Assembly: GCA_902167325.1 (NCBI GenBank) | Contig: LR632930.1 | Coordinates: 5,084,001 to 5,148,000, forward strand | Origin: Chitinophaga pinensis | GTDB lineage: Bacteria; Bacteroidota; Bacteroidia; Chitinophagales; Chitinophagaceae | Length of the DNA: 64,000 bases | Direction of reading: 5' to 3' | Shown here: positions 15,297 through 36,447 of the stretch, piece by piece | How the letters are laid out: every line of letters starts with the position of its first letter | How positions within the stretch are numbered: position 1 is the first letter of the stretch | Translations under genes and position numbers: made by a program | The notes under the pieces: model-generated | The model's input: the letters and a program-made list of their open reading frames with translations, nothing else | The model's database searches: none | What the model was told of the DNA's origin: nothing

Positions 15297-17573
15297 TCAG
15301 TAACACCTTACGGCGCAAATGGCCGCGGGAACTTCAGGAGATGGATGATCGGCTTCGATAATGAGGCGCTGCGTACGCACAGGAGCGGGCAAATCGATGC
15401 GGTGGAAGGCCTGGTAATTATCCGTTTGTTCGAAGAGGATATTGCCGGCTTCGTCTTTTACACGGAAGCTGCGCACACAAAAGGGCATGGCAGTTTCCGG
15501 GTGCGTCATCAGCACCGATTCCATGGGATGGTCGTAGTCCGTATCGAAGAACAGCTCGATGTGGCTGAGGTGCCGGGGCTGGTCCCATGAGAGGGTAAGG
15601 GCAGGCTGCGCATCGCTCCAGTCGGCCACCCAGGCGTTTGGCTGAGACACGGGGCGCTCCAGTCCGTTCGCCACATTAGCCGGCTGGAAGGCCTGCAATC
15701 CTGCGGGGATGCGGATATCGAGGTTATACCCTTCGGGCCGGCGCTGCGGGCACCAGAACTCGAACGCGTCCATCCCGATATCTTCCGGCGGCGTTTGCTT
15801 TCCGTAGTTGGATACTGCTTTGTTTACGGTATTGAAAACGGATAAAAGGCCGGTAGCGCGCCGTTCTGTATAATGCAGTTGCACGCCGGGGGTTTTGAAA
15901 AAGGTTACGAAAGCATAGCAAGGCTCCGCAAGTTCCGCATCAAAAGCCAGCTGCAGGCAATTACGGCCGGGCTGTAAATCGAAAGACTGCCGCGCCAGTG
16001 TAACATCCGGCGTATGATTACCGCTTTTGCCGCTGATGCGCAGCTCCACTTCGAGTGTGCCCTGCCCTTCCGCTTCGGCATGAATGGTCATAACGGGCAC
16101 CTTGCCGGCAGACAGGGGCAGCATTTGCGCAACTGATACGTTCAGCGGGCGGAGGATAGGCTGGCCGGGGTACTCCGTCAGCACCAGCTCGCTGCTGGCG
16201 GTAATAGTGGCGCTTTGTGCCAGATCGTCCGGAGCATTATACCGCAGGCCGGGTATGTACTGACCGAACTGGAGAAGGCGCTGTTGGAGGGCCTGTGTAT
16301 ATCCTTTACGGATAATCTCTGCAGGGAGCAGTCCCCTTTCGGTACAGATAACGGCGGCCATAGCGGCGGCCTGCGTAACGTGGGCCGCGGTGGCCATTAC
16401 GCGGGTGGAGCCATAGGCCACGTGCGAGGCGCTGATGGTACGGCCTCCGAGGAAGAGGTTGGAGATATTGCGGCTGTACAGACTGCGGTAGGGAATCTGG
16501 TAAATACCTTTGCTGTGCCATTGATTACAGCCGGGCTTTTCACTGAATACACCGTCGGCCGGGTGCAGGTCTATTGACCAGCCGCCGAAAGCCACGGCAT
16601 CTTCATGCGTGCGCTGTTCCACAATATCCTGCTGGATCATCATATAATCCCCTTCGAAGCGGCGGCTTTCGCGCTTGCCGGGGATCATGCCCACCCATTC
16701 CAGCGTGAGGTTGGCGGCTTCGGGGAATTCTCCCGAGTTCTTGATATGGTTCCATACGCCGTATACCACTTTCCATAGTTCCCATTTGATGGTTTCCGTA
16801 TCGTGCACGGTGTCCAGACGCCCGCCATACTCTATCCACCACAGTTTGCAGCCGTACTCCCGGGCATTGAAGCTGCGGTAGCGGGGTACTTTGGTGATAT
16901 CGTTCAGCGCAAAGGCAGGCGGTGTGAAGGTTACAGGCCTGCCGGTATCTTTACTATAAAAATACAGGCTGTGGCCCAGCAGCTCGCCGTATGCTTCCGA
17001 AGGGGCAAACAGTTCTCCGAATTCATCCTGCTTTTCCGCACCCATGCGGAAGGCCGCACCGGCCAGGAAGCCCACTACCCCATCGCCGGAAGCGTCGAGG
17101 AAAAGGGGGGCCTGCAGGCGGTATTCCGTCTGGTTCTGGCTGCAGTAGGCACGGAGTGCGCTGATGGTGGCGTCTTCTTTCTTTTCTACCTGGTATACGG
17201 TGGTATTGAGGAGCAGGGTGATGTTGGATTCCTGCGCTACTTTATCGAGCAGGATCATATCGAAAATGACCGGGTTGCCTTCAGGATTGCGGTAAGTATT
17301 CTCAACGAGTATTTCATCCACCACGCCTCCTTCGCGCGCCCAGCGGTTGTTGTTGCCCATGTGAGAAGTGGCGCCTAATATCCAGAGGCGCACTTCACTG
17401 CTGGCGTTGCCGCCCAGCACGGGACGGTCCTGTACAAGTACTACTTTCAATCCCTGGCGTGCAGCGGTTATGGCGGCGCAAACGCCCGAGAGGCCTCCGC
17501 CGGTAATCACGAGGTCAACAACAATGTTCTTTTCCGGGAACATACGCATCCCGGCTGCGTCTTGCTTGATCAT
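15297..17573 (-). CDS. FAD-dependent oxidoreductase (FAD_oxidored family) with C-terminal beta domains
   Basis: 758 residues with no signal peptide, so cytoplasmic. The N-terminal Rossmann motif GGGLSGVCAAITAARQG (about 25-41) is followed by VLGGNASSEVR, typical of the FAD_oxidored family (PF12831). A second FAD contact LFLDASGDGVVGFLAGA (near 175) and the C-terminal flavin segment LFLGGRTISASHVAYGSTRVM (near 390) are present. From about residue 500 onward the chain looks all-beta and may hold discoidin-like folds, an unusual addition to a cytosolic flavoenzyme. It is the last gene of the SusCD operon, 9 bp after the 938-residue protein. The inferred role is oxidation of an imported sugar or sugar derivative. 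Confidence 0.85.
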   Translation of the reverse strand: MIKQDAAGMRMFPEKNIVVDLVITGGGLSGVCAAITAARQGLKVVLVQDRPVLGGNASSEVRLWILGATSHMGNNNRWAREGGVVDEILVENTYRNPEGNPVIFDMILLDKVAQESNITLLLNTTVYQVEKKEDATISALRAYCSQNQTEYRLQAPLFLDASGDGVVGFLAGAAFRMGAEKQDEFGELFAPSEAYGELLGHSLYFYSKDTGRPVTFTPPAFALNDITKVPRYRSFNAREYGCKLWWIEYGGRLDTVHDTETIKWELWKVVYGVWNHIKNSGEFPEAANLTLEWVGMIPGKRESRRFEGDYMMIQQDIVEQRTHEDAVAFGGWSIDLHPADGVFSEKPGCNQWHSKGIYQIPYRSLYSRNISNLFLGGRTISASHVAYGSTRVMATAAHVTQAAAMAAVICTERGLLPAEIIRKGYTQALQQRLLQFGQYIPGLRYNAPDDLAQSATITASSELVLTEYPGQPILRPLNVSVAQMLPLSAGKVPVMTIHAEAEGQGTLEVELRISGKSGNHTPDVTLARQSFDLQPGRNCLQLAFDAELAEPCYAFVTFFKTPGVQLHYTERRATGLLSVFNTVNKAVSNYGKQTPPEDIGMDAFEFWCPQRRPEGYNLDIRIPAGLQAFQPANVANGLERPVSQPNAWVADWSDAQPALTLSWDQPRHLSHIELFFDTDYDHPMESVLMTHPETAMPFCVRSFRVKDEAGNILFEQTDNYQAFHRIDLPAPVRTQRLIIEADHPSPEVPAAICAVRCY

Positions 17574-17582
17574 ATATCGTAT

Positions 17583-20399
17583 TTAATTGCCTAAGGTTAT
17601 TTTTTCACTGGTAACGGTAGTGCCGTCGGGCTTTTCGAGCAACAGCCAGCATTGTACGGCAGCGGCCTGTTGAAGGGGAACGGTGAACTCGAAGGGATAA
17701 GCATCTTTACGGACAGTCTTCGTTTCACCACCTGCCACGCTATACTGCAATTGCACCGAGCGCCAGCGGTTGTCGTCATCTTCGAGGTAGAGGAATAGTC
17801 GCCGTGCATAATCACCCAGCCGGAAGAGCATGGCTTTGGCATTGCCGGTACGGATCTCCCCGTAATCGTTCCCTGTTTCTTTATTACGTGCCAGTATTTT
17901 GTGCTGGAAGCGCACCACCGGCTTAATATCTTCCACCAAAAATGCCGCGATACCGCCGGGCGCCACGCTGCATTCAAACGCCCCCTGCTGCAAACGGCCC
18001 GCCCTGGCCCCATTAATCGGCAGCACCCTGCTGGTGTTGGAGGTTTGTACCAGTGCGGGATTCAGCGCAATACGGGTGCTTACTGCCGTTTTACTTTGAT
18101 TAACGAAAGCGAGGAACAGGCGGTTACCTTTCCGGGCAGCGATGTAGTTCACTTCGCGGCTGGTACTGGTGAGCAGGCGGGCCGGCATCCATAGCTGAAC
18201 ATCTTTTTCGTTATAGAATGTGCCCGGCGTACTGCCGTACATTTTGTTCTGCAGGTAAGCATAGCCTTCAATGTATTCCGCCGGGAAATCGATCCTGCCA
18301 TTGCTGCGCACAAAAGCGTCGGTCACCAGGTAATCGATGACCATAGATGCCATGGGCAGGATGTGGTTGTAGTGGAAGGAATTAACGCTTTGCGCCTTAT
18401 GGTTGTGCAGTGGAAAATCTTCCTGCTCATAAGCAGTAGTACGTTCCGTATTGATATGATACCCAGGGAAGTTGCGGTACCGGCCAATGATGGCGGCTTT
18501 GGCCACGTTCATGAGGAAGGTGTCTTTGGCGTAATACCCTACCCGCAGCATCCACGGCGCATAGTTAGCCATGAAGATGGCGCGGTGGCCGGTGGAAGTG
18601 CCGGACGATTCCGGCGTGAGGCCGGTTTCAGAAAGCCGCCAGGCCGGTGCTTTCTCTTCCGGGTAATACATCTGCGCATGGCCTTTGGAACGCAGGTACC
18701 AGTACATGGGCGCCTTACCACCGATGTTGACAGTGACGGTACTATCGGGGATGCGCGGGCCCATCCAGGTGAACATGGTGTAGTGGCGCGCGCCGTCGGC
18801 CGCGGCCTGCAGGTAAGTTTTATCACCGGTAATTTCAAACAACTGCAACAGCTCTATCCAGCGGTTGGTATATGCCGGCCAGAAGAAGAAACTGCCTGCG
18901 AAGGGGTCGTTGAAGGCCGTTTGCCGTTGTGCCACACGTTGCTGCAGATAGGCATTGGCTTTGGTGATAGCGGCATCAAGGTATTGTTGCGTGCCTGTGG
19001 CTTTATAAAGTTGCATGGCGTTGATCCAGCTGGCACCGTCTTCTTTCACATCGAGGTTGCGGATGCGGGCGGAATTGTATTCCTGTTCCATCAGCCGCAG
19101 ATAAAACGGGTTCGTTTTACCAAACACATTGTACAGTGCCGCCAGCTCGGATAGCGGCGCTACCGGACCTTTCAGCCTGCGCGAAGGGTTCTGGATCTTC
19201 TGATTACTGTCCAGACTGAAAAGGAATTTCTCCCTGCTCAGCATAAACTCTGCCAGCGGGTAGGCTCTTTTCTCAAACATCACTTCATCGTCCCTGACAA
19301 TGGAAAGCTCCAGCGGGTTTAGACTCGATACGTTTTTCACCGCACCCGGCACGTCGGTAGAATAGGCGAAGCCTTTCAGACTGTCTACAAACCAGGCATA
19401 GTGCGTCATAGCATAGGCCGTCATATTATCGAGCACGGTGTTGAGAGAAGCGATATCGTTACGGCGATAATCGCGGAAGCCGAAGATCTTTTCGGCGAGG
19501 TATTGATAGGTATGGATAATGTCTTTGTTTTCCGCCACCAGCAGCAAAGAGAAATGGAACGCCTGTCCTGCCTGCATCTGCGAACCATACCCGCCGGGGA
19601 TGGGTGCATATACCTGCGGTTGCATCTCCCCTGCTTCGTTCCGCAACGCAATACCGAACTGGCTGTTGGGCAATGTAGGCAGCGGCTGGAAAGGCAGGTG
19701 CTCCGGCCCGGCGAGCACGCCGATGGTGTTTAACCCATCATTCACCATGGTAGTGGGCAGCGGTGCCATGAAAGCCGGTGTAAGGTAGGCTGCATCGGGC
19801 ATTCTTAATTCCTGCCAGATGAGCGGCTGCCATATCTCTTTAGCAACGGCCCCCTGCAATGCAGGAGCGCCCACGTAGCCAATGCTGTACCAGCCATTGC
19901 GCGGGGCTTTGTAAGTGAAATGTAATGCAGGATACGGCCGGCCCGATGTAATGAGGTATGCGCTGAGCGCGGGGTCAGGAAAGGTAAAGAACAACGTATC
20001 CTTCTTCTGCCGGATGGCGGTAGCTGCCAGCAGCTGGCTTTCGCCGGCATGAAAAACATTGGCCGTCCGCCATTCTGATTTAGCGCGGAGGATGCGGTCG
20101 TCGAAGCCGTCGCCCGCCACGGAGGCGTTGATCTTTTTCTGAACGAAACCGGCACGACTGCTGTCGGTCACTTTCCAGGTGAGCACATTGTATTCCACTT
20201 TGTTGATTCCCGCTGGCTTCAGCGTCATGCCGGGGTCAACAGCATTGTATAATACGCGGAAGACAGGCCTGAATTGATAATCCTTCCCACCCGAAGTGAT
20301 GCGGATACCATCGCCGGCCGAGGGTACACTTACCTGCGCCTGCGCCGCAAGGCTCAATCCGATCAGACAGGCTGTTATACGTGGAAGTCTGTTTTTCAT
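17583..20399 (-). CDS. Secreted protein, predicted alpha/alpha-toroid, paralogue 1 of three
   Basis: 938 residues. The signal peptide (about 1-22) ends near AQAQ with no lipobox, so it is periplasmic or secreted. The N-terminal third is beta-rich, the middle (about 330-720) has repeated helical pairs of the six-hairpin glycosidase/lyase type (YLDAAITKANAYL, TGDKTYLQAAADGARHY), and the C-terminus is a beta-sandwich. It shares ordered motifs with the 1112- and 850-residue proteins of the operon: VYAPIPGG, FGFRDYRR, WMLRVGYYAKDTFLMNVAKA followed by IGRYRNFPGYH, VIDYLV and VNYIAARKGNRLFLAFVNQS. I do not recognise a named CAZy family. Glycan cleavage is inferred from fold and context. It has its own promoter-like region with tandem operators upstream. 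Confidence 0.85.
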   Translation of the reverse strand: MKNRLPRITACLIGLSLAAQAQVSVPSAGDGIRITSGGKDYQFRPVFRVLYNAVDPGMTLKPAGINKVEYNVLTWKVTDSSRAGFVQKKINASVAGDGFDDRILRAKSEWRTANVFHAGESQLLAATAIRQKKDTLFFTFPDPALSAYLITSGRPYPALHFTYKAPRNGWYSIGYVGAPALQGAVAKEIWQPLIWQELRMPDAAYLTPAFMAPLPTTMVNDGLNTIGVLAGPEHLPFQPLPTLPNSQFGIALRNEAGEMQPQVYAPIPGGYGSQMQAGQAFHFSLLLVAENKDIIHTYQYLAEKIFGFRDYRRNDIASLNTVLDNMTAYAMTHYAWFVDSLKGFAYSTDVPGAVKNVSSLNPLELSIVRDDEVMFEKRAYPLAEFMLSREKFLFSLDSNQKIQNPSRRLKGPVAPLSELAALYNVFGKTNPFYLRLMEQEYNSARIRNLDVKEDGASWINAMQLYKATGTQQYLDAAITKANAYLQQRVAQRQTAFNDPFAGSFFFWPAYTNRWIELLQLFEITGDKTYLQAAADGARHYTMFTWMGPRIPDSTVTVNIGGKAPMYWYLRSKGHAQMYYPEEKAPAWRLSETGLTPESSGTSTGHRAIFMANYAPWMLRVGYYAKDTFLMNVAKAAIIGRYRNFPGYHINTERTTAYEQEDFPLHNHKAQSVNSFHYNHILPMASMVIDYLVTDAFVRSNGRIDFPAEYIEGYAYLQNKMYGSTPGTFYNEKDVQLWMPARLLTSTSREVNYIAARKGNRLFLAFVNQSKTAVSTRIALNPALVQTSNTSRVLPINGARAGRLQQGAFECSVAPGGIAAFLVEDIKPVVRFQHKILARNKETGNDYGEIRTGNAKAMLFRLGDYARRLFLYLEDDDNRWRSVQLQYSVAGGETKTVRKDAYPFEFTVPLQQAAAVQCWLLLEKPDGTTVTSEKITLGN

Positions 20400-20421
20400 A
20401 CTGTGTTATACTTGCCGGTAT

Positions 20422-20475: not shown

Positions 20476-20508
20476 TGGGAACATTCCCAATTTGTGGGAG
20501 CATTCCCA
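20476..20508. promoter_or_regulatory. Tandem LacI-type operator pair inside the operon
   Basis: Two palindromes, TGGGAACATTCCCA (20476-20489) and TGGGAGCATTCCCA (20495-20508), have centres 19 bp apart and are separated by a short AT-rich linker containing AATTTG. The same two-site block with the same spacing and linker lies upstream of the LacI gene (35371-35404). The site is 77-109 bp upstream of the gene starting at 20399. The regulator at 35434-36447 is the obvious candidate binder. Whether it represses or activates here cannot be read from sequence. Confidence 0.75.
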
Positions 20509-20517
20509 AAACGAAGG

Positions 20518-21906
20518 TTACCGTTTCACCAGGGGCAACGGAGTACCCTTCAACAGCACCCGCCCCAGGTACAACACGGAGGCTCCATACTTTTCAGGGT
20601 GTTGGGTAATATCCGTTTGTTGATCAGGACCGAGGATGGAACGCTTATCCGCCTGTTGGGAAGAAAGCCGGATGGAGACGGTATACTCCCCTTCGGGCAG
20701 CGAGAACAATTGATGCTGGCCGCGGTAGCGGTTGTTGCAATACGCGTTGAACCGGTTTACCGGAATACTGTCCCCTTCCTGCAACCGGTATACCTGCGTG
20801 CCGGGCACCAGCGGCGGATGCACCTGCATAGGGCGGCCGTTCACTTCAATGGTGATCTGCCCTGCTTCAGGACCACCGATATCGAAGATGCCGAAGCCGC
20901 TGCCTTTAAAACGGAAAGTGAAAGCCGCCCCGGGAACGGATGCTTTTTCGATGACGGGGAACCATGCTGCGAACTGCGGAATCTGTATTTGTTCCCATGT
21001 ACCGCTGAACGCGGCAATATCTCGCGGAGCAAACATGGCAGCACCGGCCCAGTTATCCGTAAAAAGCGGTGCGGGCGTTGTGCGTACAGGCTTGCGGGAG
21101 GGCATCCGCTTCATTTCCTCCATAGCCCGTGCGATAGCGGCGGCGTACAGGTTACCACCGGCCTGCAGCGGGTGAATACCGTCAGTAGAAAAGAGGATAT
21201 GCCCCATAGTATCTTTCGCATCGCCTTTCCACAATAGCTTCCCATCCTGTTCGAGTTGAGCAGCCTCCATACCCATATGAACCGATGGCAGCCGGTAATG
21301 CACCGCCACCCGTTCCAGCCCTTGTATGTTCGCGGGTATATTCCCGTTGTTATAATCTTTTGTTTGTGCACCGGTAATGGTATAGATAAGGCAAGCTTCC
21401 GCGCCGGCAGCTTTTACCTGCCGCACGATGCCTTCCATACCTTCTGCGTAGGCCCCGTTAACGGCGAACTCGATGAACACGAGATCGGGCTTATACTGCA
21501 GCAGTTGCTCCTGTACGCGGCAGGTCCCGAGGTCGGTACCCGTGCCGGATACGCCTGCGTTCAGGGCTTTGATATCACTGGCCGGGAACATAGCCTGCAG
21601 GTAACGGAGCGCCTGCGGCCGGTAGCCCACGTTGCCCTGCGTGATACTGCCACCAATGAAGCCCACCATTAAGGGCTTCCCGGCCTTCGCTTTGGCGAAA
21701 AAGGCAGGCAAACCGTTGCGGGGTATACACTCCCTTTCGTTCCGATAACTTCCCGGCATTACCAGCGGCGTAGCAGGCAATGGCTGGAAATACAAAGGCG
21801 ATGCGCCTGCCTGCGATGCGGCGATGAGATCGTTGTTGCTTTGCGCCTGTGTACCCGTTACAGTGGCACACAGCAGGCAGGCAATGTAAATGCGGATATG
21901 TCTCAT
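20518..21906 (-). CDS. SGNH/GDSL hydrolase, probable secreted carbohydrate esterase
   Basis: 462 residues with a signal peptide ending near TQAQS. The SGNH blocks are visible: block I GFIGGSITQG (Ser at about 87), block II LNAGVSGTGTDLG (Gly at about 118), block III IEFAVNG (Asn at about 150), and block V STDGIHPLQAG (Asp 242, His 245). A C-terminal beta-sandwich of about 170 residues follows, probably a carbohydrate-binding module. The start overlaps the stop of the upstream gene (ATGA). In a SusCD operon the enzyme most likely removes acetyl or other acyl groups from the glycan so that the neighbouring hydrolases can act. Confidence 0.9.
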   Translation of the reverse strand: MRHIRIYIACLLCATVTGTQAQSNNDLIAASQAGASPLYFQPLPATPLVMPGSYRNERECIPRNGLPAFFAKAKAGKPLMVGFIGGSITQGNVGYRPQALRYLQAMFPASDIKALNAGVSGTGTDLGTCRVQEQLLQYKPDLVFIEFAVNGAYAEGMEGIVRQVKAAGAEACLIYTITGAQTKDYNNGNIPANIQGLERVAVHYRLPSVHMGMEAAQLEQDGKLLWKGDAKDTMGHILFSTDGIHPLQAGGNLYAAAIARAMEEMKRMPSRKPVRTTPAPLFTDNWAGAAMFAPRDIAAFSGTWEQIQIPQFAAWFPVIEKASVPGAAFTFRFKGSGFGIFDIGGPEAGQITIEVNGRPMQVHPPLVPGTQVYRLQEGDSIPVNRFNAYCNNRYRGQHQLFSLPEGEYTVSIRLSSQQADKRSILGPDQQTDITQHPEKYGASVLYLGRVLLKGTPLPLVKR

Positions 21907-24900
21907 AAATGCAGGTTTCTTTCAAATGTGCGCCCGTCGCGGGTAGTAACGGTCACTTTTACGTTGGCCTCCTCTCCTGTTTCCAGCGGGTGGAACGACC
22001 ATTCAAACGGATACGCAGTAAGTGTTGCCTCACGTTGATTCATATTAACAGTCACACGCGTGCCTTCTGACAGGGTAGATTCAAGATAACCGTACACCGC
22101 ATCCCAGCCAAAGGGGGTACGGATGCGGAACAAATAGCACTTACCAATCCCCGGCCCAAAATCCGTTTGCCGCATGCCTTCTATCAAAGGCGATACCCTG
22201 GGTAGCATACCCTTTTTACCCGATACAGGGAAACTAACCGCAGCAAATTGCTTAGGCGGAATAGTGACAGTGAGTGTACGCTTCCCTGCTCCCTTTGTTT
22301 CCCCTGCAGCGCCGGTTTGGGTGTACCAGGTGGCACGGGCGTTTGCAGAAACGGGCGCTTCCTCACCTAAAACAATATCACACATTAACGGTACATCGGA
22401 TTCGCTGTTAAGCAATACCCAGAAGCGCTTATCCGAAATGGCGGTTACGTAGTTTACTTCCGGATGATTGATATGTACGAGGCCCCGCTTCATCCAGAGG
22501 CGCACGGCCTTATCATCCATCACCTTCCCGGTGCCACCGCCGTAGATGCGGTTATTGAACCACACGAAGCCGTCCTGCTTCACATACGGGAAAGCCACTT
22601 TCCCACCGCTGCGCTGCTGCACTTCGGTAATCAGGTAATCGGTACTGAAAGCAAGGTGTGGTGGAATGTGATGATAGTAGACGGAGCTAACATCCGGTCC
22701 TTTATAGGGAAATTCCGGCTGCAGGGTAATATCCTGGAACCCCGGTGCATAATACCCCGGGTAGTTCGTGAACCGACCTATCACGGCGTTGCGCGCATAG
22801 GTTTCGAATATCTTGCGGGGTTTATGCTGATACAGGCGCAACAGGTGCGGCGCCCAGCTGCTCATGTAAACATGGCGCATCAGCTTGGAGGGGTCGAAGA
22901 AAGTATATGGTTGCTCGAAGCCCAGTCCTACGGGTGAAACCAGCGCCTGCGGCACCTGCTTCTCCTGCACATCGCCCGGCTTACGGGGGAAGCCCAGCCG
23001 GTACTTCTCCCCGCCCTTCCACCACATGGTGGTATTGCCTTCGAAGGCATTCCCCGGGTGAATGGTTTGTATTGTATCCTCCACAAAGGGATAGCTCCTA
23101 ACACCGGCGATGGTATGGAAAGCTGCATATGCAGCGGCATCGAGGTATTTAGTGGTGCCCGTGGCATCGTAAAGATCAGGCAGATCCCACCAGTTGGCGT
23201 AGAACGAAGTATTGTAGAAAGGTTGTTTGGTAAGAGGAATCGTTTTAGTGCCATACACTTCATCCGCCACAAAAGCATCAGCATGTTTAACGGCGGAATC
23301 CAGCCAGCGGCGCTGCCCCGTAAGCCGGTATGCTGCCAGCTCCTGCGACCATACCGGTACAGACACGGAGTAACCGCCCGCTTCCCGTACTTTACCTTCG
23401 GGCAGGGCGATGCTTTTGAGCCATGGATTGGCGGCACCAAGGAGCTGGTAAAGGCCTTCGAAGTATGCGGTGGTGAATTGGGAACCGTACGGACTGAGCG
23501 TACCTGCCTTCTTACTCATCCCCTTTTGCGCCCAGCGGAAACCGCTGCGGCTGAGGGTGTACTCGATTACCGGCAGCGCCCGGCTGATGAAAAGCGCTTC
23601 GTCATGCGCCTGTACGGCTGCCGCGATCACGGCCAGTGGAGCCGCCTGTACAACCGTAGGTGCAGACACAGGGTCAGCCTCGATGTCGTAAAACCCTTTC
23701 AGTGCAGGCGCCCAACCGGCGGCCGTGTCGTTTTTGATGAGGTCGGTGATGTTAAAGATGGTTTCCGTTAACGATAAAGCGGGGCGGCGGTAATCGCGCA
23801 CGCCATAGATACTGCCAGACACATATTCCAGCGCAGCATTCCAGCCCGCTGCGGCGCCGATGGAGAATGAGCGGCGCAGCAACTGCCCCGCCTGCAGCTG
23901 TCCATCGCGCAGGCCCGGTACAGGGGCATAGGCTACAGGTTGCAGCGTGTTCTTTTCATTCTGTATCCCAAAGCCGATGACCGAGGTGCTGCCCATGGCC
24001 CAGTCGAGCGGGAAGCTCTGGCGCGTGGCAGCTACAAATAAAGCCACGCTGTCGCCTTTACGTTCCGTGATGGAAACCGGCTGCGGCATTAAGGCACTGG
24101 GCAACATTTTCGGCTGCTCCGGGATGCGTTGGTATTGGAACATAGGCGGCAGCAGCACGTTGGAGATCTGCGGTTTCTCTGCCCCCTGGAAAGCCGTTAC
24201 TACAAAACAATAATACGCCGCCTTCGGCGCTTTGAACTGAAGATCGATCTGCAGGTGGCGGTGGCCCGGCTGCAGCGTCCATATGCCTTGTATGTCCTGT
24301 CCGTCTGCTGCGCGGTAAGTTACCCGTAAACCGTGCGCCCCTTCCTGCTCCACCGCTATCGCATGAAAGGCGGTGAGCGTGCCGGAGAGAAAAGGATTCT
24401 GGAGGTTGCCGGGCAGCATTACCCTGTACGTTTTGCCTTTACAGGTAAGGGTGCTGTAGCCGTTGGAACCGTTCCATCCGGGATAGAATCCGCCAAAGGT
24501 GACCTGGGGGTTATCGGCACTGAGGAGCAATACCCGGTGTTCTTCCTGCGAGCCGGGTACGTATTCCCAGCGGCCATTATGTTGTATAGCGGTGCGGGCA
24601 GCAAATTGACTACCCTTGCGCCATTCCAGTTTCAGGAATTCATTTTGAAGGACGTTGGCCACCGGTGCGTTTACCGGTACGGCTGCCACCGGCAACACAG
24701 GTTGTACGGGCGGTGTGGGATATACGGACTGATGGGGAGCTTTGTAGCGGGAAAGGTCCGCCCCTTCGGGCTGGATGTTTTCAGCGGTGAGGAACAGCGC
24801 GTCGGTACGGGCAAAGTTCCCCCTGCTGTCGCGCAGCTGGATGACGTTCTCCCCGGTATCCAACCGCATGCTACCCGCCTTTTCCCAATGATAGCCCGCC

Positions 24901-25241
24901 TTACCGTGGCGGCCGCATTCGTTGGCCAGCGGTACATCATTGAGCAATACTTCAAACAGGCGTGTGCCGGGCCGGTCGGTCGGATAATCGATCGTGCGTG
25001 CCCATACGGTGTATTCACCGGGTTCGGTGATGCGGATAACGGTTAATGCATCGGCGGCTTTTACCTGTCCGCTGATGACGCGTAGTATCTGGTGGCTGGA
25101 TGCGCCGCCACCCGGAGGCCGCTCCACGATCCATCCGCCATGGATGCGGAAATCCTCCGCTTCCAAGAAGTAACTGCGCTGTGCATGTACGGACAGGAAG
25201 CCCCCTATGCATAGCAGTATGCATATCAAAAATGATTTCAT
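21903..25241 (-). CDS. Secreted multidomain protein, predicted alpha/alpha-toroid, paralogue 2 of three
   Basis: 1112 residues with a signal peptide ending near VHAQR. An extra N-terminal beta domain (about 22-165, FLEAEDF, GEYTVWARTID, FARTDALFLTAE) looks like a carbohydrate-binding module. The core matches the neighbours in order: YAPVPGL, YGVRDYRR, HLLRLYQHKPRKIFETYARNA followed by IGRFTNYPGYY, STDYLITEVQQRSGGKVAFP and VNYVTAISDKRFWVLLNSE. The C-terminus is a beta-sandwich. No known catalytic signature is recognised. It lies 22 bp after the 850-residue paralogue and overlaps the SGNH gene by 4 bp. It is probably a polysaccharide hydrolase or lyase acting on the same glycan; that is inference. 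Confidence 0.85.
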   Translation of the reverse strand: MKSFLICILLCIGGFLSVHAQRSYFLEAEDFRIHGGWIVERPPGGGASSHQILRVISGQVKAADALTVIRITEPGEYTVWARTIDYPTDRPGTRLFEVLLNDVPLANECGRHGKAGYHWEKAGSMRLDTGENVIQLRDSRGNFARTDALFLTAENIQPEGADLSRYKAPHQSVYPTPPVQPVLPVAAVPVNAPVANVLQNEFLKLEWRKGSQFAARTAIQHNGRWEYVPGSQEEHRVLLLSADNPQVTFGGFYPGWNGSNGYSTLTCKGKTYRVMLPGNLQNPFLSGTLTAFHAIAVEQEGAHGLRVTYRAADGQDIQGIWTLQPGHRHLQIDLQFKAPKAAYYCFVVTAFQGAEKPQISNVLLPPMFQYQRIPEQPKMLPSALMPQPVSITERKGDSVALFVAATRQSFPLDWAMGSTSVIGFGIQNEKNTLQPVAYAPVPGLRDGQLQAGQLLRRSFSIGAAAGWNAALEYVSGSIYGVRDYRRPALSLTETIFNITDLIKNDTAAGWAPALKGFYDIEADPVSAPTVVQAAPLAVIAAAVQAHDEALFISRALPVIEYTLSRSGFRWAQKGMSKKAGTLSPYGSQFTTAYFEGLYQLLGAANPWLKSIALPEGKVREAGGYSVSVPVWSQELAAYRLTGQRRWLDSAVKHADAFVADEVYGTKTIPLTKQPFYNTSFYANWWDLPDLYDATGTTKYLDAAAYAAFHTIAGVRSYPFVEDTIQTIHPGNAFEGNTTMWWKGGEKYRLGFPRKPGDVQEKQVPQALVSPVGLGFEQPYTFFDPSKLMRHVYMSSWAPHLLRLYQHKPRKIFETYARNAVIGRFTNYPGYYAPGFQDITLQPEFPYKGPDVSSVYYHHIPPHLAFSTDYLITEVQQRSGGKVAFPYVKQDGFVWFNNRIYGGGTGKVMDDKAVRLWMKRGLVHINHPEVNYVTAISDKRFWVLLNSESDVPLMCDIVLGEEAPVSANARATWYTQTGAAGETKGAGKRTLTVTIPPKQFAAVSFPVSGKKGMLPRVSPLIEGMRQTDFGPGIGKCYLFRIRTPFGWDAVYGYLESTLSEGTRVTVNMNQREATLTAYPFEWSFHPLETGEEANVKVTVTTRDGRTFERNLHL

Positions 25242-29508: not shown

Positions 29509-30399
29509 CTATGGTGTAATGGTTAAAGTAATTTCACGGGTGAGGCGCTTTTCGCCGTTATAACGTACTGCAGATGCCTCGAACACTACTTTGTAGGTGC
29601 CCGGCTTCCTGTACACATAACTGTGCCCCTGCAGTACTGTACTGATATTTTTCAATGCCTGTCCGGCGTCAGGAGCAATCTGCCAGGGGTTGAAGCCCTT
29701 GCTGATCACCCAGTCTTCGTTATCCTCCACGGTAGCGCTGCTGTTTTGCATGAGCAGCTGGGCAGTGCTGATGGTCCAAACACGGTCGGGATTCTTTACA
29801 TCCACCTGCTGCCAGCCTCCGGTGGCCATCAGCGCCAAAGGTGTCACCACCCCGTCGTCAGACACATTGTTGGCAGTGAAGGTACGTACCGCCCAGAGGT
29901 TTTGCCCCTGCGGCTTTTTAGTATCGGTATACCGGAAAGCGACATGCACCGGCGCGGCATCCTGCTGCGGACGGGTAAATTCTTTCAGACTTATCTCACC
30001 GGAAGGCGTGTTATCGGCACCGGTGGAAAACACCGCCCGGTCGGAGATGTCCGTCCAGGTAGCGGCCTGCAGATCCGCCACGGTTGCCTTTCCGGAGAAG
30101 TTGTTCGACACCATCAGTTGCAGGTTGGGATAAGTGATCCCATTGCGGGTGAGGGTGGAAAACGTGATCCGGAGATCGTTGGCGGCACTGGTACGCTTCC
30201 TGAATTCATAATTACGGCCCGGTTCACCGGAAAAGAAGGTGATATTGTCCGGGTTGCCCTTGAAAGCGAACCTTACGGTATCGCCTGCCTTATAGATCAG
30301 GGAGCCGGCCTGCACTTCAAAATCCGGCATCTCCACTTTGTCTTTATTGCAGGCCGCCAGCGCCATGGCTGCGGCTAAAGTATATAAAACCTTTCGCAT
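29509..30399 (-). CDS. DUF5017 domain lipoprotein
   Basis: 296 residues. The signal sequence has the lipobox ALAAC (Cys at about 18). The mature protein opens with the pattern of DUF5017: GDTVRFAFKGNPDNITFFSGEPG, followed by a beta-rich domain with LWAVRTFTANN and ending in a PKD-like strand set (GHSYVYRKPGTYKVVFEAS). Proteins of this kind sit next to SusD and are probably surface glycan-binding lipoproteins. The gene starts 3 bp after the SusD stop, which suggests tight co-translation. Confidence 0.82.
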   Translation of the reverse strand: MRKVLYTLAAAMALAACNKDKVEMPDFEVQAGSLIYKAGDTVRFAFKGNPDNITFFSGEPGRNYEFRKRTSAANDLRITFSTLTRNGITYPNLQLMVSNNFSGKATVADLQAATWTDISDRAVFSTGADNTPSGEISLKEFTRPQQDAAPVHVAFRYTDTKKPQGQNLWAVRTFTANNVSDDGVVTPLALMATGGWQQVDVKNPDRVWTISTAQLLMQNSSATVEDNEDWVISKGFNPWQIAPDAGQALKNISTVLQGHSYVYRKPGTYKVVFEASAVRYNGEKRLTREITLTITP

Positions 30400-30402
30400 G
30401 AT

Positions 30403-31971
30403 TTACCAGTTCGGGTTTTGTGTGATGAGATGGTTGACCGTGATCTCTGTGTTCGGAATGGGGAACACGAGGTTGCGTGTTGTCACGTTTTTAGCGGCAT
30501 TGGCGGCGTAACGGAAAGCGGAAGGTGCCGTGGCGGTGATTTCTGCGGCGAGCGACTGCATCTTCGACAGGTATAATCCCCAGCGGAGGAGGTCGTGCTT
30601 GCGAATACCTTCGAACGCCAGCTCACGGGCGCGCTCATCCTGCACATACGCGAGGAAAGCTGCTTTATCCATTCCCTCCGGTGCATCTGCCGTAACATCC
30701 GGAGTGCCGGCGGGTTTACCAAATCCTCTGCGGCGTACCTGGTTCAGTGCATTGTATGCAGCGGCGGTGGGACCGTTCAATTCATTCTCCGCTTCCGCTT
30801 TCATCAGCAGCACATCGGCATACCGGATCACGGGGAAGTTGGTAGAGTTGTAAGACCGGTTCTTAGGCGTGGCAGTTTCGTATTCACGGCGCCATTTGCC
30901 TACCGTACGATCGTATACCTGTGCGGCGGTGTAGTTCGTTTTGGTGGTAACGCCGTTCGTGATAACATATTTATATGGGGCAATGGCCCAGTCGCGGCGG
31001 GGATCATCGGTCCCATACAGCTCAAACATGCGGCCCGTGGGGTGTATGCCACCGCCGCTGTAACCGATCTTATCATCCGCACACTCCAGTCCGTTTTCGA
31101 TGCCTACCGCCCCGGCTAGTTGCGTACTGCCCAGCTGGTTGCCGAACATTCCGATCTCCCAGATGCATTCCTGCAGGTCGTATTTATCCTGCGAATGATT
31201 GATGAAGATCTGTTTATAGTCGGGGTTGAGGGAATGGCGGCCGGAAGTGATCACCGAATCAGCATAGTCGAGCGCATCTTTGTACCGTGCCGTTTCCATC
31301 AGCGGCTCACCTGCCATGGTGAGGAACACCCTTGCCAGGATGGCCTGTACCGCAGTTTTAGTCACGGTTTCGTTGTAAGTGTAACCCTGGATATCGCTCA
31401 CCAGCTTTTCGGCCTCCTGCATATCTTTCACGATCTGCGTGTATACGGCTTTCACAGTGGTGCGGGGCAGATAAGTATCGTTCGGGGAACCGGTGGAAAC
31501 CAGCTTCAGGGGTACACCGCCGAAATGATCTACCAGCAAAAAGTAATAGTATGCACGGAGGAACAGCGCTTCGCCACGGATCACGTTGCGGCGGGTTTCA
31601 TCCATCTTCGGCTTGTTCACATTCTCAAGGAGCAGGTTGGCCCTGTCGATGCCCTGGTAGGCAGTTTCCCAGAAGCGGCCTACATCGAGCTGCCCTGCGT
31701 CGAACTCCATTACTTTGAGGTTATTGATGGTAATGTTCTTGTAGAAGAACTCATCGCTGATGGCGAGGTAGCTGTACAGGCCACGTGAATACATACGCCC
31801 GAAGTTATCGATGAGGCGGTTGTACACGCCGTTCAATGCACGCTTCAGGTCGGCCTCGGTATTATAATAGTTTTCGGGCGTCACGAAATCTTCCGGTTCC
31901 GTTTCCAGGAACTTCTTACAGCCGCTCATGGCGCTGGCGGCAAGGAGTAAAAATATCAGGATGCGCTTCAT
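30403..31971 (-). CDS. SusD/RagB family nutrient-binding lipoprotein of the LacI-controlled locus
   Basis: 522 residues. The signal and lipobox MSGC are followed by KKFLETEPEDFVTPENYYNTEADLKRALNGVYNRL, the classic SusD N-terminus. Further family motifs are GEALFLRAYYYFLLVDHFGGVPL, YADVLLMKAEAENEL, LNQVRRRGFG, DERARELAFEGIRKHDLLRW and FPIPNTEI. It would be outer-membrane anchored and cap the SusC pore. It lies 47 bp after SusC. The sequence does not tell the ligand. Confidence 0.95.
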   Translation of the reverse strand: MKRILIFLLLAASAMSGCKKFLETEPEDFVTPENYYNTEADLKRALNGVYNRLIDNFGRMYSRGLYSYLAISDEFFYKNITINNLKVMEFDAGQLDVGRFWETAYQGIDRANLLLENVNKPKMDETRRNVIRGEALFLRAYYYFLLVDHFGGVPLKLVSTGSPNDTYLPRTTVKAVYTQIVKDMQEAEKLVSDIQGYTYNETVTKTAVQAILARVFLTMAGEPLMETARYKDALDYADSVITSGRHSLNPDYKQIFINHSQDKYDLQECIWEIGMFGNQLGSTQLAGAVGIENGLECADDKIGYSGGGIHPTGRMFELYGTDDPRRDWAIAPYKYVITNGVTTKTNYTAAQVYDRTVGKWRREYETATPKNRSYNSTNFPVIRYADVLLMKAEAENELNGPTAAAYNALNQVRRRGFGKPAGTPDVTADAPEGMDKAAFLAYVQDERARELAFEGIRKHDLLRWGLYLSKMQSLAAEITATAPSAFRYAANAAKNVTTRNLVFPIPNTEITVNHLITQNPNW

Positions 31972-32018
31972 AATCGCAGTTTTTTAAGTGTTGATGTGAT
32001 CGGCTAATAATCGCGGCA

Positions 32019-35000
32019 CTACAGTGTAAGGTCCACCCCCAGCGTGAGGGTACGCGCCTTCGGGTAGGCCGACCAGTCGAAGCCCGGTGTGAGGGCCGTG
32101 TGGCGGACAGACACTTCAGGGTCCAGGCCGGTGTAGTTGGTCCAGGTGTACAGGTTCTGTGCAGCAGCATACACGCGCAGCGATTTGATATTGGCGCGGC
32201 GCAGGAGCTTTTGCGGCAGGGTGTACCCCAGGGCTACGGTTTTCAGGCGCAGGTAAGAGCCGTCTTCGATAGTGCGGGAAGAATATACCTGTGGTCCCTG
32301 TCCGCCAACGCGGTACAGCTCGTTGGTCTGGTTCTCCGGCGTCCAGCGTTTTTCGAAAGACTTGAACATGTTCAGGTAATTGCGCACCACATCACCGCCT
32401 TCGAACTCGATGCGGTTGGCATTGAGGATATCGTTACCATAGCTCCACTGGAAAAACACGTTCAGGTCAAAGCCGCCATAGGTGAAATTATTGGAGAAAC
32501 CGCCCGTATGCTTCGGGTTGGGATTACCGATAATGGTGAGGTCGCTGTTATCTACCTGTCCATCGTTATTGATATCCCTGTATTTGATATGCCCCGGTGT
32601 GATATTGGCCCGCGGCATGGTGTTGTTGGGCACTTCGTCTTTCAGTACATACGATCCGTTGGCCAGCTTGTTGAAATCGCTGTACTGGTACACCCCGTCG
32701 AACAGGAAGCCGTAGAACTGCGCAATGGGCTGGCCGGGAATGGCGATATAGGGGAATGCGTTGTTAAAGTTCCCCCAGGTGATGCGCGTTGCAAGGCTCG
32801 GCTCGTCATCATTCAGCTGCACCACTTTATTCCGGTTGAAGGAGATGTTGAAGTTGGAGGTCCAGCTGAATTGCTTCGTCTGGATATTCGTCGTATTAAG
32901 CGTAAGCTCCAGACCCTGGTTGGAAACCTTACCCACGTTGCGGAAACCGTTGAGGTAGCCGGTGGAACCGGGCAGGGTGGCGAGGAGCAGCAGGTCGCGG
33001 GTATTCTTTTTATAATAATCGGCCGTGAAGGCGATGCGGTTATTGAAGAATCCGAGATCCACTCCGATATCTGCCTGTTCGGTAGTTTCCCACTTCAGGT
33101 TTTTGTTGCCCAAATTGTTGGGGATGATGCCTGCTTCCATGTTATTGCCATAGGAGTAACCGGAGTAGATAAACATCTGGAGAGACGAAAGGTAGGCAAA
33201 GTCCAGTACGCGGTTATTACCCGTTAAACCGTACCCTGCGCGCACCTTGGCGTCAGACAGCCAGGAGATGTCTTTCATGAACGGTTCCTCGATCAGGCGC
33301 CATGCGAAAGCACCTGAAGGGAAGTACGCCCATTTGTTGCCCGGTGCGAATTTAGAAGAACCGTCGGACCGGAACGATACCGTGAAGAGGTACTTCAAAT
33401 CGTACGTATAGTTTACACGGCCGAGGAACGACATGAGCGCATTCTTCGACTTCTCGTTAGGTGCTGTAGACACGATGCCTTCGTCCAGCCCGCTCATACC
33501 CAGTCCTTCGTTAGGCACCTGCGTGGAAACAAAGCCATGACGGTAGGTGGAGATCTTCTGCAACGTCATACCTGCCACTGCATTCAGGCTGTGCTTTTTG
33601 TTGAAAGTGCGCACATAGCTGAGGGTATTTTCGTTCAGGAGGTTATTGGTCTCAATATTATCGACAGACCCGTTCACGCCCAGCGCACTGCTTTTCGGGT
33701 TGCCGAGGCGGGTGCTGGAATTATTGAAGATCTCGCGGCGGATGTTCGTTTTGGTCATGCCACCGGCGATGCGCAGGGTGGTATATTTCAGTGGTTTGAT
33801 CTCCACATAGGCATTCGTGATAAAGGTATTGTTGAATGCGGGATTGTATTCGTTCCGGGTGGATATGATGGGATTGATGCGCCATTCGTTCAGCGGGTCC
33901 ACATCGGGGTCGAAAGGCTCATCCAGCAGGGCAGCATCATTATCCGCATTACCGGTTACCGGGCGGTAACCCCATACGCTGTACATGAGGCTCGCGGTAG
34001 GACCGCTGGCCGGCCCGCTCACCGTTGAGCTGGCGAAGATACCGTTGGTTTTGGTACCTGTATAGTTGATGTTGATGCCGGCCTTCACCTTGTCGCTGAT
34101 GGTCTGGTCAATGATAGCGCGGCCCTGGTAGCGGCGGAAGCCGCTGTTGATAATGATCCCATCCTGCGAGAAAACGTTACCGGAAAGGGAATACTTCGTT
34201 TTCTCATTCCCGCCGCGGAGCGACAGGTTATGGTTATGACCGATAGCGTTGCGGAACACCTGGTCCTGCCAGTTGACACCTTTTACGTTGCGGTAATCTT
34301 CCAGTGTTTTGCCGTCTTTCAGGTAGATGGGCGTGTACATGGTGGGGTTCATCTCCAGCTGGTACTTCACGAATTCGTAGGGGTCCAGCATTTCCTGCTG
34401 GCGGATGTTCTGCATCATGCCTACCCAGGCCTGGTAATTGACAACCGGCGCGCCTGATTTGCCTTTTTTAGTGGTGATCATGATCACCCCGTTGGCGCCG
34501 CGTGCGCCGTAAATAGCGGTAGCGGAGGCATCTTTGAGGACTTCGATGGAAGCAATGTCTGCCGGGCTGATCACGTTGTTATCCGGGCTTTCCATGGGGA
34601 AACCGTCTACCACATACAGCGGTGAGTTTTCCTGCGTAACGGAGTTGTTGCCGCGGATAACGATCTGCATGCCGGCGCCTGGCTGTCCGTCAGGAGCAGC
34701 AACCTGTACACCGGCCACGCGGCCGGCCAGTGCCTGCTCAAAGCTGGCAACGGGGGCTTTCTCCATGTCGGCCATCTTCACCTCTCCTACTGATCCTGTA
34801 AGGTCTTTCCGCTTAACGGTACCGTAGCCGATCACTACCACATCGTTAAGGCCTTTCACGGCAGGTTCGAGTTTGGTGTTATAGACGGAAGCGTTGGGCG
34901 CGGGGCGCGCCTCTTTGGAGTGGAAACCTACGAAAGAGAATACGAGCACCGCATCAGCAGATTGCGGGATGCGGATAGTGTACACTCCTCCTTCGTTGGT

Positions 35001-35180
35001 CATAGCCTGCGCTTTGCCGCCTTTGAGGACAACTGTGACCCCGGGGAGCGGCTCCCCCTCCATGTCTGTAATCTTGCCGGTGATGGTGCGTACCGCGCCC
35101 TGAGCGGGCTGCGTTTGTGCATAGGAAAGGAAAGGCACCACCATACACAGCATGAGCATTAAAAAGATCTTTGCGTTCAT
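32019..35180 (-). CDS. SusC/RagA TonB-dependent transporter of the LacI-controlled locus (no STN domain)
   Basis: 1053 residues. The signal peptide ends near SYAQT. A carboxypeptidase-regulatory-like domain follows (about 28-105, ITGKITDMEGEPLPGVTVVLKG), then LNDVVVIGYGTVKRKDLTGS, the plug (ASATAIYGARGANGVIMITTKKG) and the barrel ending in LTLGVDLTL. Unlike the other two SusC proteins in the window it has no STN domain and no FecR/sigma partner, so it is not controlled by trans-envelope signalling. A LacI-family gene diverges from it instead. It is the first gene of the 20-kb operon; the leader contains a CGGAACATTCCG palindrome. Confidence 0.95.
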   Translation of the reverse strand: MNAKIFLMLMLCMVVPFLSYAQTQPAQGAVRTITGKITDMEGEPLPGVTVVLKGGKAQAMTNEGGVYTIRIPQSADAVLVFSFVGFHSKEARPAPNASVYNTKLEPAVKGLNDVVVIGYGTVKRKDLTGSVGEVKMADMEKAPVASFEQALAGRVAGVQVAAPDGQPGAGMQIVIRGNNSVTQENSPLYVVDGFPMESPDNNVISPADIASIEVLKDASATAIYGARGANGVIMITTKKGKSGAPVVNYQAWVGMMQNIRQQEMLDPYEFVKYQLEMNPTMYTPIYLKDGKTLEDYRNVKGVNWQDQVFRNAIGHNHNLSLRGGNEKTKYSLSGNVFSQDGIIINSGFRRYQGRAIIDQTISDKVKAGININYTGTKTNGIFASSTVSGPASGPTASLMYSVWGYRPVTGNADNDAALLDEPFDPDVDPLNEWRINPIISTRNEYNPAFNNTFITNAYVEIKPLKYTTLRIAGGMTKTNIRREIFNNSSTRLGNPKSSALGVNGSVDNIETNNLLNENTLSYVRTFNKKHSLNAVAGMTLQKISTYRHGFVSTQVPNEGLGMSGLDEGIVSTAPNEKSKNALMSFLGRVNYTYDLKYLFTVSFRSDGSSKFAPGNKWAYFPSGAFAWRLIEEPFMKDISWLSDAKVRAGYGLTGNNRVLDFAYLSSLQMFIYSGYSYGNNMEAGIIPNNLGNKNLKWETTEQADIGVDLGFFNNRIAFTADYYKKNTRDLLLLATLPGSTGYLNGFRNVGKVSNQGLELTLNTTNIQTKQFSWTSNFNISFNRNKVVQLNDDEPSLATRITWGNFNNAFPYIAIPGQPIAQFYGFLFDGVYQYSDFNKLANGSYVLKDEVPNNTMPRANITPGHIKYRDINNDGQVDNSDLTIIGNPNPKHTGGFSNNFTYGGFDLNVFFQWSYGNDILNANRIEFEGGDVVRNYLNMFKSFEKRWTPENQTNELYRVGGQGPQVYSSRTIEDGSYLRLKTVALGYTLPQKLLRRANIKSLRVYAAAQNLYTWTNYTGLDPEVSVRHTALTPGFDWSAYPKARTLTLGVDLTL

Positions 35181-35370: not shown

Positions 35371-35404
35371 TTGGGAACATTCCCAATTTGCGGGAATGTT
35401 CCCA
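35371..35404. promoter_or_regulatory. Tandem LacI-type operator pair in the lacI/susC divergent region
   Basis: TTGGGAACATTCCCAA (35371-35386) and GGGAATGTTCCC (35392-35403) are palindromes with centres 19 bp apart, separated by a linker with TTTG. They lie 31-63 bp before the LacI start at 35434, the right place for autoregulation. The linker TTTG (35387-35390) could also serve as the -33 element of the regulator promoter. The block matches 20476-20508 in sequence, order and spacing. Confidence 0.8.
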
Positions 35405-35433
35405 CCGTTTCAAATATTTCGTTTCTTAGCGTT

Positions 35434-36447
35434 ATGAAAAGACACCAGGTTACCATCATCGATATTGCGAAAGAGCTGAACCTGTCGAAGTCGACCGTTT
35501 CGCGGGCGCTCACGGGCCACAAGAGCGTAAAGCCAGACACGCGGCAGGCCGTGCTGGAGCTGGCGGAGAAGCTGGATTACCAGCGGAATATGCTCGCCAT
35601 CAGCCTTATTACCAATAAAACGAATACGATCGGCATCATCGTTCCGGAGTTTAAAAGCTCCTATTTTCCCACGGCCATCATCGGCGCACAGGAGGTAGCC
35701 AGCAAGGCGGGATACTCCACCGTCATCTGCCAGTCCGACGAAAGTTATGAAACCGAAGTGGCTAATACGCGCGTAATGCTGGCCAACCAGGTAGATGGCA
35801 TCCTCGTGTCTATCACCAAAGAAACCCGTAACTACGACCATCTGAAGATCTTCCAGCGGAAGGGTATTCCCATTGTGTTCTTCAACCGCGTGTGCGATGA
35901 AATGGAAGTGCCGAAAGTGATTGTGGACGATTACGACGGTGCCTACCGTGCGGTGAACTACCTGATAGAATCCGGCCGCAAACGCATTGCCCACCTCGCC
36001 GGACCTTCATCCCTGAAGATCAGTGAAAGGCGCATGAACGGCTACAAAGCGGCATTACGGAAGCATAATGTGCCGCTCGACGAAGAGCTGCTCATCTCCT
36101 ACGACCTCAACATCGAAAAAGTAAAGATCTACGTTACCCATCTCCTGAACCTCGATAATCCGCCCGATGCCATCTTTGCCGTGAACGACCCTACCGCCAT
36201 CGAAACCATACAGGTGATCCGTAAGCGTGGGCTGCGGGTACCGGAAGATATTGCCGTGGTGGGCTTCAGCAACGACTTCGTATCCGGACTCATCGACCCG
36301 CCTCTTACCACCGTTTCACAACCCGTAAAAGAGATCGGGCGTACTGCCGCGCAACTGCTGATAGAGCAGATCAGCCGTGAAGTGGCCGACTGGAAATCGG
36401 TCACCAAGATCCTGAAAACAGAACTGATCGTCCGCAAATCTACCTGA
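35434..36447 (+). CDS. LacI family transcriptional regulator
   Basis: 337 residues from the ATG at 35434. The open frame extends to 35314 but that part runs through the operators and is not conserved-looking. The helix-turn-helix (about 4-24, VTIIDIAKELNLSKSTVSRAL) and the hinge region are typical of LacI. The effector domain follows (about 60-335) with TNTIGIIVPEF, VDGILVSITKETR, FFNRVCDEMEVPKVIVDDYDGAYRAVNYLIESG, IFAVNDPTAIETIQVIRKRGLRVPEDIAVVGF and LTTVSQPVKEIGRTAAQLL. It is divergent from the SusC operon. The tandem palindromes upstream of it and inside the operon indicate that it regulates itself and the locus in response to a sugar. Confidence 0.95.
   Translation: MKRHQVTIIDIAKELNLSKSTVSRALTGHKSVKPDTRQAVLELAEKLDYQRNMLAISLITNKTNTIGIIVPEFKSSYFPTAIIGAQEVASKAGYSTVICQSDESYETEVANTRVMLANQVDGILVSITKETRNYDHLKIFQRKGIPIVFFNRVCDEMEVPKVIVDDYDGAYRAVNYLIESGRKRIAHLAGPSSLKISERRMNGYKAALRKHNVPLDEELLISYDLNIEKVKIYVTHLLNLDNPPDAIFAVNDPTAIETIQVIRKRGLRVPEDIAVVGFSNDFVSGLIDPPLTTVSQPVKEIGRTAAQLLIEQISREVADWKSVTKILKTELIVRKST

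Follow-up and report, generated by a model that had tools for sequence, protein, structure and literature searches.

A LacI-linked SusCD locus of Chitinophaga pinensis encoding three homologous toroid proteins without a Pfam or NCBIfam family

The 6.28-Mb genome of the soil bacterium Chitinophaga pinensis carries, on contig LR632930.1 (5084001-5148000; this 64,000-nucleotide stretch is the window, and coordinates are given within it), a SusCD locus of nine minus-strand genes (15297-35180) with a divergent LacI gene that faces SusC. Three of the genes encode large homologous proteins, here called P1, P2 and P3, which on comparison with Pfam and NCBIfam constitute an undescribed protein family within a known kind of locus, and palindromic sites stand in pairs before each of two putative transcription units. 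The reading that we favour, with confidence slightly above even, is that of a LacI-regulated polysaccharide-utilisation locus that would cleave an acetylated, uronate-containing plant glycan.

Three homologous proteins without a family name

Pairwise BLAST scores of 211, 105 and 88 bits relate P1, P2 and P3 to one another, and a comparison of the P3 and P2 profiles gave a probability of 100% (E 1.5e-42). An alignment of 66 rows (A4) combined the three window proteins with 47 of 77 length-passing rows for P3, 10 of 35 for P2 and 6 of 11 for P1, and a maximum-likelihood tree was built from 34 of these proteins. Each of P1, P2 and P3 was split off by a branch with support of at least 100/99, which identifies them, on the sequences compared, as three old clades; this branch support thus suggests that the paralogues are old and were retained as separate functions.

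No Pfam or NCBIfam match was obtained for P1, and none above the cut-off for P2 and P3. P3 reached 17.6 bits against the GH88/GH105 profile PF07470 (curated cut-off 26.6) and P2 15.7 bits against the GH127 profile PF07944 (curated cut-off 24.9), which at E 0.001 matched nothing in the C. pinensis genome; both families were rejected, the similarities being weak local repeat matches. Profiles searched against PDB sequences mostly recovered a toroid repeat of 70-100 residues that is common to GH76, GH88-type and LanC-like chains. An earlier sequence-only reading had proposed three homologous, toroid-like enzymes of no recognised family, in a candidate for an undescribed system. The homology is confirmed by BLAST and profile comparison, the toroid by models of P3 and P2, and no protein exceeds a Pfam or NCBIfam cut-off, but all three are enzymes only putatively. 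In addition, the word undescribed suits the protein family, which lacks a name in both databases, but not the locus, whose kind is known and recurs widely.

Of 195 genomes surveyed in the same taxonomic family, 16 match P3 at E 1e-100, and in a survey of the phylum it was matched at E 0.001 in 10 of 395 genomes, with strong matches in four. A GTDB scan returned 296 stretches that encode a P3 relative; given this number, the locus is not unique. The counts for related loci given below refer to the best 80 of these stretches with P3 as the query, which we take to be all from Bacteroidota, two of them from Bacteroides.

Predicted folds and a candidate active centre

In the models of P3 and P2 (predicted local distance difference test, pLDDT, 91.8 and 85.2), a beta-sandwich and an (alpha/alpha)6 toroid are combined with C-terminal beta domains; P2 carries in addition a CBM35-like domain that matches a domain also present in the GH26 mannanase 3zm8. 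In the Foldseek comparison, which the earlier reading had proposed, the first match of P3 was the PL27 lyase 5NO8 (E 1e-9, template modelling (TM) score 0.28, 10% identity, whole-length root-mean-square deviation (rmsd) 14.8), which came seventh for P2, and PL26 5XQJ was among the structural matches of P2 with an overlay rmsd near 26 A. For P3, many hydrolase and phosphorylase chains matched the same architecture, and in a structure comparison some 2 to 5 Z units separated GH76, GH88-type and PL27 chains from the top toroid matches; a family's absence from the VIA structure lists of P3 and P2 does not count against it.

Four residues are invariant in all 66 aligned paralogues: Glu642, Arg667, His716 and Asp726 in P3, corresponding to Glu776, Arg802, His858 and Asp868 in P2 and to Glu597, Arg619, His679 and Asp689 in P1. 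In the P3 model, His716 opens the last toroid helix, Asp726 lies within that helix, and Glu642 is in a loop preceding a short helix. Beyond this set, the conserved charged residues differ among P1, P2 and P3, which would be compatible with different substrates or linkages.

Paired operator sites and the LacI regulator

Palindromes of the form TGGGAACATTCCCA are paired at a distance of 19 bp in two places, the LacI-SusC gap and the 118-bp gap that precedes P1. The window contains three exact sites against 0.04 expected, a number reached in 0 of 100 shuffles; the third is that of the 118-bp gap, with a one-mismatch copy 19 bp away. One-mismatch sites at 21334 and 50306 are both within open frames, and a shorter GGAACATTCC stands at 35230 in the SusC leader. 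Genome-wide, the pattern GGGAAYRTTCCC has seven places in 6.28 Mb (two for a reversed control pattern), three of them in this locus. Further regulon members in this genome were rejected, as the other four places are all within called open frames, one of which has 153 amino acids (aa) and may not be a gene.

This LacI was found in 43 of the 80 fetched loci (tblastn recount). An exact site lies at most 500 bp from the N-terminal end of LacI in 35 of these 43, with two or more sites in 32, and any site at all was found in one of the 37 loci without this LacI (L137, one site). The spacing within pairs is mostly 19 bp and otherwise 12-22 bp (two 1090-bp distances between separate pairs were excluded), and 15 of the 43 LacI loci have sites far downstream, between genes such as SGNH and P1, GH97 or FAD. 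Some sites fall inside an open frame because frames were called from the earliest possible start. Altogether, 100 sites were observed in the 80 loci, compared to 0-2 in mononucleotide shuffles.

Owing to the second operator pair in the 118-bp gap, the operon is better read as two units with the same LacI tag, and it probably comprises two transcription units. We infer from these patterns that LacI binds the TGGGAACATTCCCA sites, and it is probably a repressor that switches the whole gene set through this repeated DNA tag. The link between LacI and the SusCD locus, already proposed from the sequence, is strengthened by the conserved operator pairs. In 21 of the 80 loci the position of the regulator is held by another regulator cluster, the one scanned member of which is GntR-type.

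Three LacI relatives (L186:14496-15674, L188:14054-15238 and L190 from 18952) have an extra cysteine-rich N-terminal stretch, zinc-ribbon-like by eye. The window also contains two more SusCD pairs (6732-13588 and 41824-48578), each adjoined by two small genes that are sigma-factor- and anti-sigma-factor-like by eye, the more usual type of control.

Organization of the locus

The nine-gene order, strands and single 118-bp gap described earlier were confirmed by the coordinates (Table 1), and the names given to SusC, SusD, DUF5017, SSF, SGNH, the flavin adenine dinucleotide (FAD) oxidoreductase and LacI are each supported by Pfam. Adjacent susC and susD homologues accompanied by secreted glycan-related proteins identify a SusCD locus; the regulator has the helix-turn-helix and periplasmic-binding-protein-like domains of the LacI family, together with a predicted palindromic operator near the promoter. 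The statement that all parts of a glycan pathway are present was too strong: genes for capture, esterase, symporter and FAD enzyme are there, but none of the window locus genes was assigned by Pfam to a known glycosidase family.

Table 1. Features of the LacI-linked SusCD locus in the window
Feature	Coordinates	Strand	Basis and remarks
LacI-family regulator	35434..36447	+	ATG start; listed open reading frame begins at TTG 35314; Pfam PF00356, PF00532, PF13377
Operator pair 1 (predicted)	35372..35404		GGGAACATTCCC 35373-35384 and GGGAATGTTCCC 35392-35403, 19 bp start to start; LacI-SusC gap
SusC-type TonB-dependent transporter	32019..35180	-	Pfam; TIGR04056, 921.6 bits
SusD-type surface glycan-binding lipoprotein	30403..31971	-	Pfam
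DUF5017 protein, probable surface glycan-binding lipoprotein	29509..30399	-	Pfam 3e-52; role suggested by position and by eye
SSF sodium:solute symporter	27813..29501	-	Pfam 4.1e-34; NCBIfam
P3, 850 aa; beta-sandwich, (alpha/alpha)6 toroid, beta domain	25264..27816	-	Model; signal peptide by eye
P2, 1112 aa; CBM35-like domain, beta-sandwich, toroid, beta domains	21903..25241	-	Model; signal peptide by eye
SGNH esterase resembling CE17 (RiCE17)	20518..21906	-	Pfam GDSL/SGNH 3.5e-12; profile match
Operator pair 2 (predicted)	20476..20509		GGGAACATTCCC 20477-20488 and GGGAGCATTCCC 20496-20507 (with one mismatch); spacing 19 bp; 118-bp gap
P1, 938 aa; third toroid paralogue	17583..20399	-	Homology; signal peptide by eye; with FAD, second putative transcription unit
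FAD-dependent oxidoreductase, PF12831	15297..17573	-	Pfam 6.2e-95; no signal peptide by eye; C-terminal extension past the Pfam domain

The gaps are 47 bp (SusC-SusD), 3 bp (SusD-DUF5017), 7 bp (DUF5017-SSF), 22 bp (P3-P2), 118 bp (SGNH-P1) and 9 bp (P1-FAD), and there are 4-bp overlaps between SSF and P3, with the P3 start corrected, and between P2 and SGNH. P3 most likely starts at ATG 27816, which overlaps the SSF stop, and not at GTG 27918; LacI most likely starts at ATG 35434, because a start at TTG 35314 would place the operator pair within the gene. The same gene order was found again in related genomes, indicating that the arrangement is not due to chance; the nearest fetched relative is a locus of Chitinophaga deserti (P3 91% and LacI 99% identical). 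Elsewhere in the window, at 1-2621 (-), there are two neighbouring 437-aa open frames that share 36% identity; the window edge cuts the first of them.

The SGNH esterase

A profile of 13 SGNH relatives (A7: the window protein, 11 of 32 length-passing rows and one longer row) matches the CE17 esterase RiCE17 (6HFZ) at 7.7e-29 over the SGNH domain and some of the domain after it, and by this match the window esterase is similar to CE17. It differs from CE17 in its origin from Bacteroidota, and the match covers positions 72-350 of 475. Ser87, Asn150, Asp242 and His245 are conserved in all 13 rows and are, by motif, likely to form the catalytic set. RiCE17 is reported to have an SGNH domain joined to a CBM35 and to strip 2-O-acetyl groups from mannan (PMC9487903, PMC13276840), and according to one paper CE17 has been described only in Bacillota (PMC13276840).

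The FAD enzyme

The match to PF12831 (FAD_oxidored) is full-length (319.4 bits, profile positions 1-416 of 416) and above the cut-off. In alignment A6 (the window protein and 22 of 49 length-passing rows), the other 22 members are 52-77% identical to the window enzyme, and many Arg and His residues are invariant. Similarity to solved proteins is confined to the N-terminal FAD-binding part, to about residue 80, and solved relatives were rejected as a guide for this reason. As no signal peptide was seen by eye, the enzyme is presumed to be cytosolic.

All 16 P3-positive genomes among the 195 surveyed in the taxonomic family carry the FAD enzyme. Among the FAD-positive genomes without P3, a P1-like protein adjoins FAD in three and a P2-like protein in one; two (G045 and G087) have LacI and MFS genes together with GH95, SASA and GH2-like or GH29 genes, LacI and SusCD are present in G030 and, along with SSF and a GH2-like gene, in G185, and in G135 the enzyme is on a 5.2-kb contig with SSF and a piece of SusD. 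The enzyme was found in 56 of the 80 fetched loci; some of the other 24 end before its position, and it may be absent from some Pedobacter loci.

Related loci and their additional genes

In the 80 fetched loci we counted SusC in 78, SusD in 77, SSF in 70, DUF5017 in 44, SGNH in 38, P2 in 36, the GntR-type cluster in 21 and P1 in 14; the last genes are undercounted because the loci were cut at 10 kb. A Pfam scan of 29 distinct neighbouring proteins identified, as additions in relatives, GH97, GH3, GH2, GH31, GH28-like or other beta-helix proteins, SASA esterase, DUF4886, GH95, GH29, GH16-like and CelD_N. A common substrate deduced from neighbouring carbohydrate-active enzymes was rejected: GH97, GH3, GH2, GH31, GH28-like, GH95, GH29, SASA and DUF4886 vary by locus, and thus no single glycan follows.

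Ten of the 80 loci add a protein termed c11 and a second FAD_oxidored protein (about 600 aa), whose N-terminal region resembles that of P2 (by eye, in the two that were read). DSVDAKAGAT, which resembles the ApbE flavinylation motif, occurs in eight of the ten c11 proteins, and ApbE itself in five of the loci with c11; possibly, c11 and the second FAD_oxidored (with ApbE in five loci) form an extracytosolic flavin redox chain within a glycan locus. The motif-bearing c11 stands next to the second FAD_oxidored, upstream of P3, in L146, L150, L154, L158, L160, L163, L165 and L169. A protein that is sulfatase-like by eye adjoins P3 in two loci (L127:12639-14246 and L128:8288-9910). In the window, near LacI, the protein at 37923-38786 (-) is 52-54% identical to proteins inside 12 of the 80 loci (DUF4886 in the one scanned), and no operator-like site was found near it.

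A proposed pathway and its alternatives

In the pathway that we favour, two units, SusC-SusD-DUF5017-SSF-P3-P2-SGNH and P1-FAD, would each be led by a LacI operator pair. SusCD and DUF5017 would capture the glycan at the surface, and the CE17-like esterase would remove O-acetyl groups. The apparently secreted P3, P2 and P1 would cut different linkages, in the periplasm or at the surface, being probably exo-acting enzymes that cleave glycosidic bonds with a shared Glu/His centre. SSF would then import the released unit, and its conversion by the FAD protein would follow in the cytosol. The likeliest glycan is a plant heteropolysaccharide that is acetylated and contains a uronic acid.

Several observations weigh against this pathway. 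No member found here has a known activity, and one of P1-P3 could be non-catalytic, since the other conserved charged residues differ among them. The domains of 5NO8 and the P3 model do not superpose together, as judged by the TM score of 0.28 and the rmsd of 14.8 over the whole length. Eight of the 43 LacI loci have no site near the gene, and 9 of the 25 genomes with the FAD enzyme, among the 195, lack P3. The MFS proteins of G045 and G087 have as best models the D-galactonate and PgtP transporters, far below the cut-off; the galactonate-type matches reach 220.6 and 215.1 bits where the curated cut-off is 395. CBM35-like folds bind several sugars. No GH88/GH105 was found among the 29 scanned neighbours, where such an enzyme would be expected if the product came from a lyase; the C. 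pinensis genome carries GH88-type genes outside the locus. Finally, CE17 is known from acetylated mannans, not from uronates (PMC13276840, PMC9487903).

Among the alternatives, a new glycoside hydrolase family, with a fold related to clan GH-L and GH127-type enzymes, is a serious possibility, if somewhat short of even. Hydrolases usually have two acidic residues at the pocket, whereas the only acidic residues common to all three proteins are Glu642 and Asp726, and Asp726 is inside the last helix. We regard it as doubtful that P1-P3 are strict polysaccharide lyases, which would act by beta-elimination next to uronic acid, as PL27 does, with the flavoenzyme handling the unsaturated or keto acid in place of a GH88/GH105 step. 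The ranks of 5NO8 for P3 and P2, the presence of 5XQJ in the P2 list, the Arg and His common to P1-P3 and the many invariant Arg and His of the flavoenzyme, which fumarate-reductase-like enzymes also keep, are all in keeping with lyases. However, profile comparison with PL26 gave a probability of 0.2-0.6% (from a PL26 profile of three sequences), the overlays are poor (rmsd near 26 A for PL26 and 14.8 A for 5NO8), and the same architecture is matched by many hydrolase and phosphorylase chains.

A redox-assisted deglycosylation, in which the flavoenzyme would oxidise a sugar hydroxyl, elimination would break the bond and the toroids would act on the oxidised intermediates, appears improbable. 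It agrees with the presence of the FAD enzyme in every P3-positive genome and with the second FAD_oxidored, the flavinylation-like motif of c11 and ApbE in the related loci described above. However, by eye a signal peptide is missing from the window FAD enzyme but present in the toroids, so that they would act in different compartments, and no known keto-sugar lyase or Gfo/Idh enzyme was found among the 29 scanned neighbours. An acetylated beta-mannan locus, to which the CE17-like esterase and the CBM35-like domain shared with 3zm8 would point, is slightly more improbable still: the scanned neighbours include no GH5, GH26, GH113 or GH130, and the GH97, GH95, GH29 and GH28-like neighbours do not fit. 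Least probable of all are epimerase- or isomerase-like toroids acting on released sugars without bond cleavage, since such enzymes lack a large beta-sandwich, the CBM-like domain of P2 and the apparent secretion of all three proteins fit polymer-active enzymes, and the toroid match is not specific, with GH76, GH88-type and PL27 chains at such similar Z scores.

Comparison with known systems and significance

Like the SusCD loci of Bacteroidota, the window locus clusters SusC, SusD, a surface lipoprotein, secreted proteins, an inner-membrane symporter and a dedicated regulator; it differs in that no Pfam or NCBIfam family includes its three principal secreted proteins, and its sole cytosolic enzyme is a conserved flavoenzyme without a signal peptide. 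A SusCD locus with a local repressor was already known, and what is new here is the operator pairs and their link to LacI. As in the PL27 L-rhamnose-alpha-1,4-D-glucuronate lyases (5NO8, BACCELL_00875), an N-terminal beta-sandwich precedes an (alpha/alpha)6 barrel in P1-P3, but these also have beta domains at the C-terminus and, in P2, a CBM-like domain; in the search against PDB sequences, the 5NO8 chain was absent from the profile matches up to E 10. The multi-domain architecture of beta-sandwich and toroid is also that of the PL26 exo-rhamnogalacturonan lyases. PL26 was nevertheless rejected, because its profile PF21345 matched nothing in the C. pinensis genome at E 0.001 and the hhalign probability was as low as given above. 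GH88/GH105, GH76, GH127 and AGE-type enzymes likewise share the (alpha/alpha)6 toroid through weak local repeat matches, but the sequence match extends over only about 70-100 residues. Searches of the open-licence literature for this type of locus mostly returned no paper, and it may be described elsewhere.

In a bolder and rather unlikely reading, P1-P3 would be the first members of a new superfamily of exo-acting enzymes that cleave glycans, and the locus would run a new catabolic route: a dedicated flavoenzyme would process the unsaturated or acidic sugar that they release and that is then imported, and in some species a secreted flavinylated redox pair would act on the same glycan. P3 relatives are encoded in 296 stretches, with two from Bacteroides among the 80 fetched, yet they have no Pfam or NCBIfam name. 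If P1-P3 are active, they would represent one or more new carbohydrate-active families, and the recurrent flavoenzyme partner would point to an intracellular redox step in glycan breakdown. With the conserved operator, the regulon can be searched for directly and its inducer tested.

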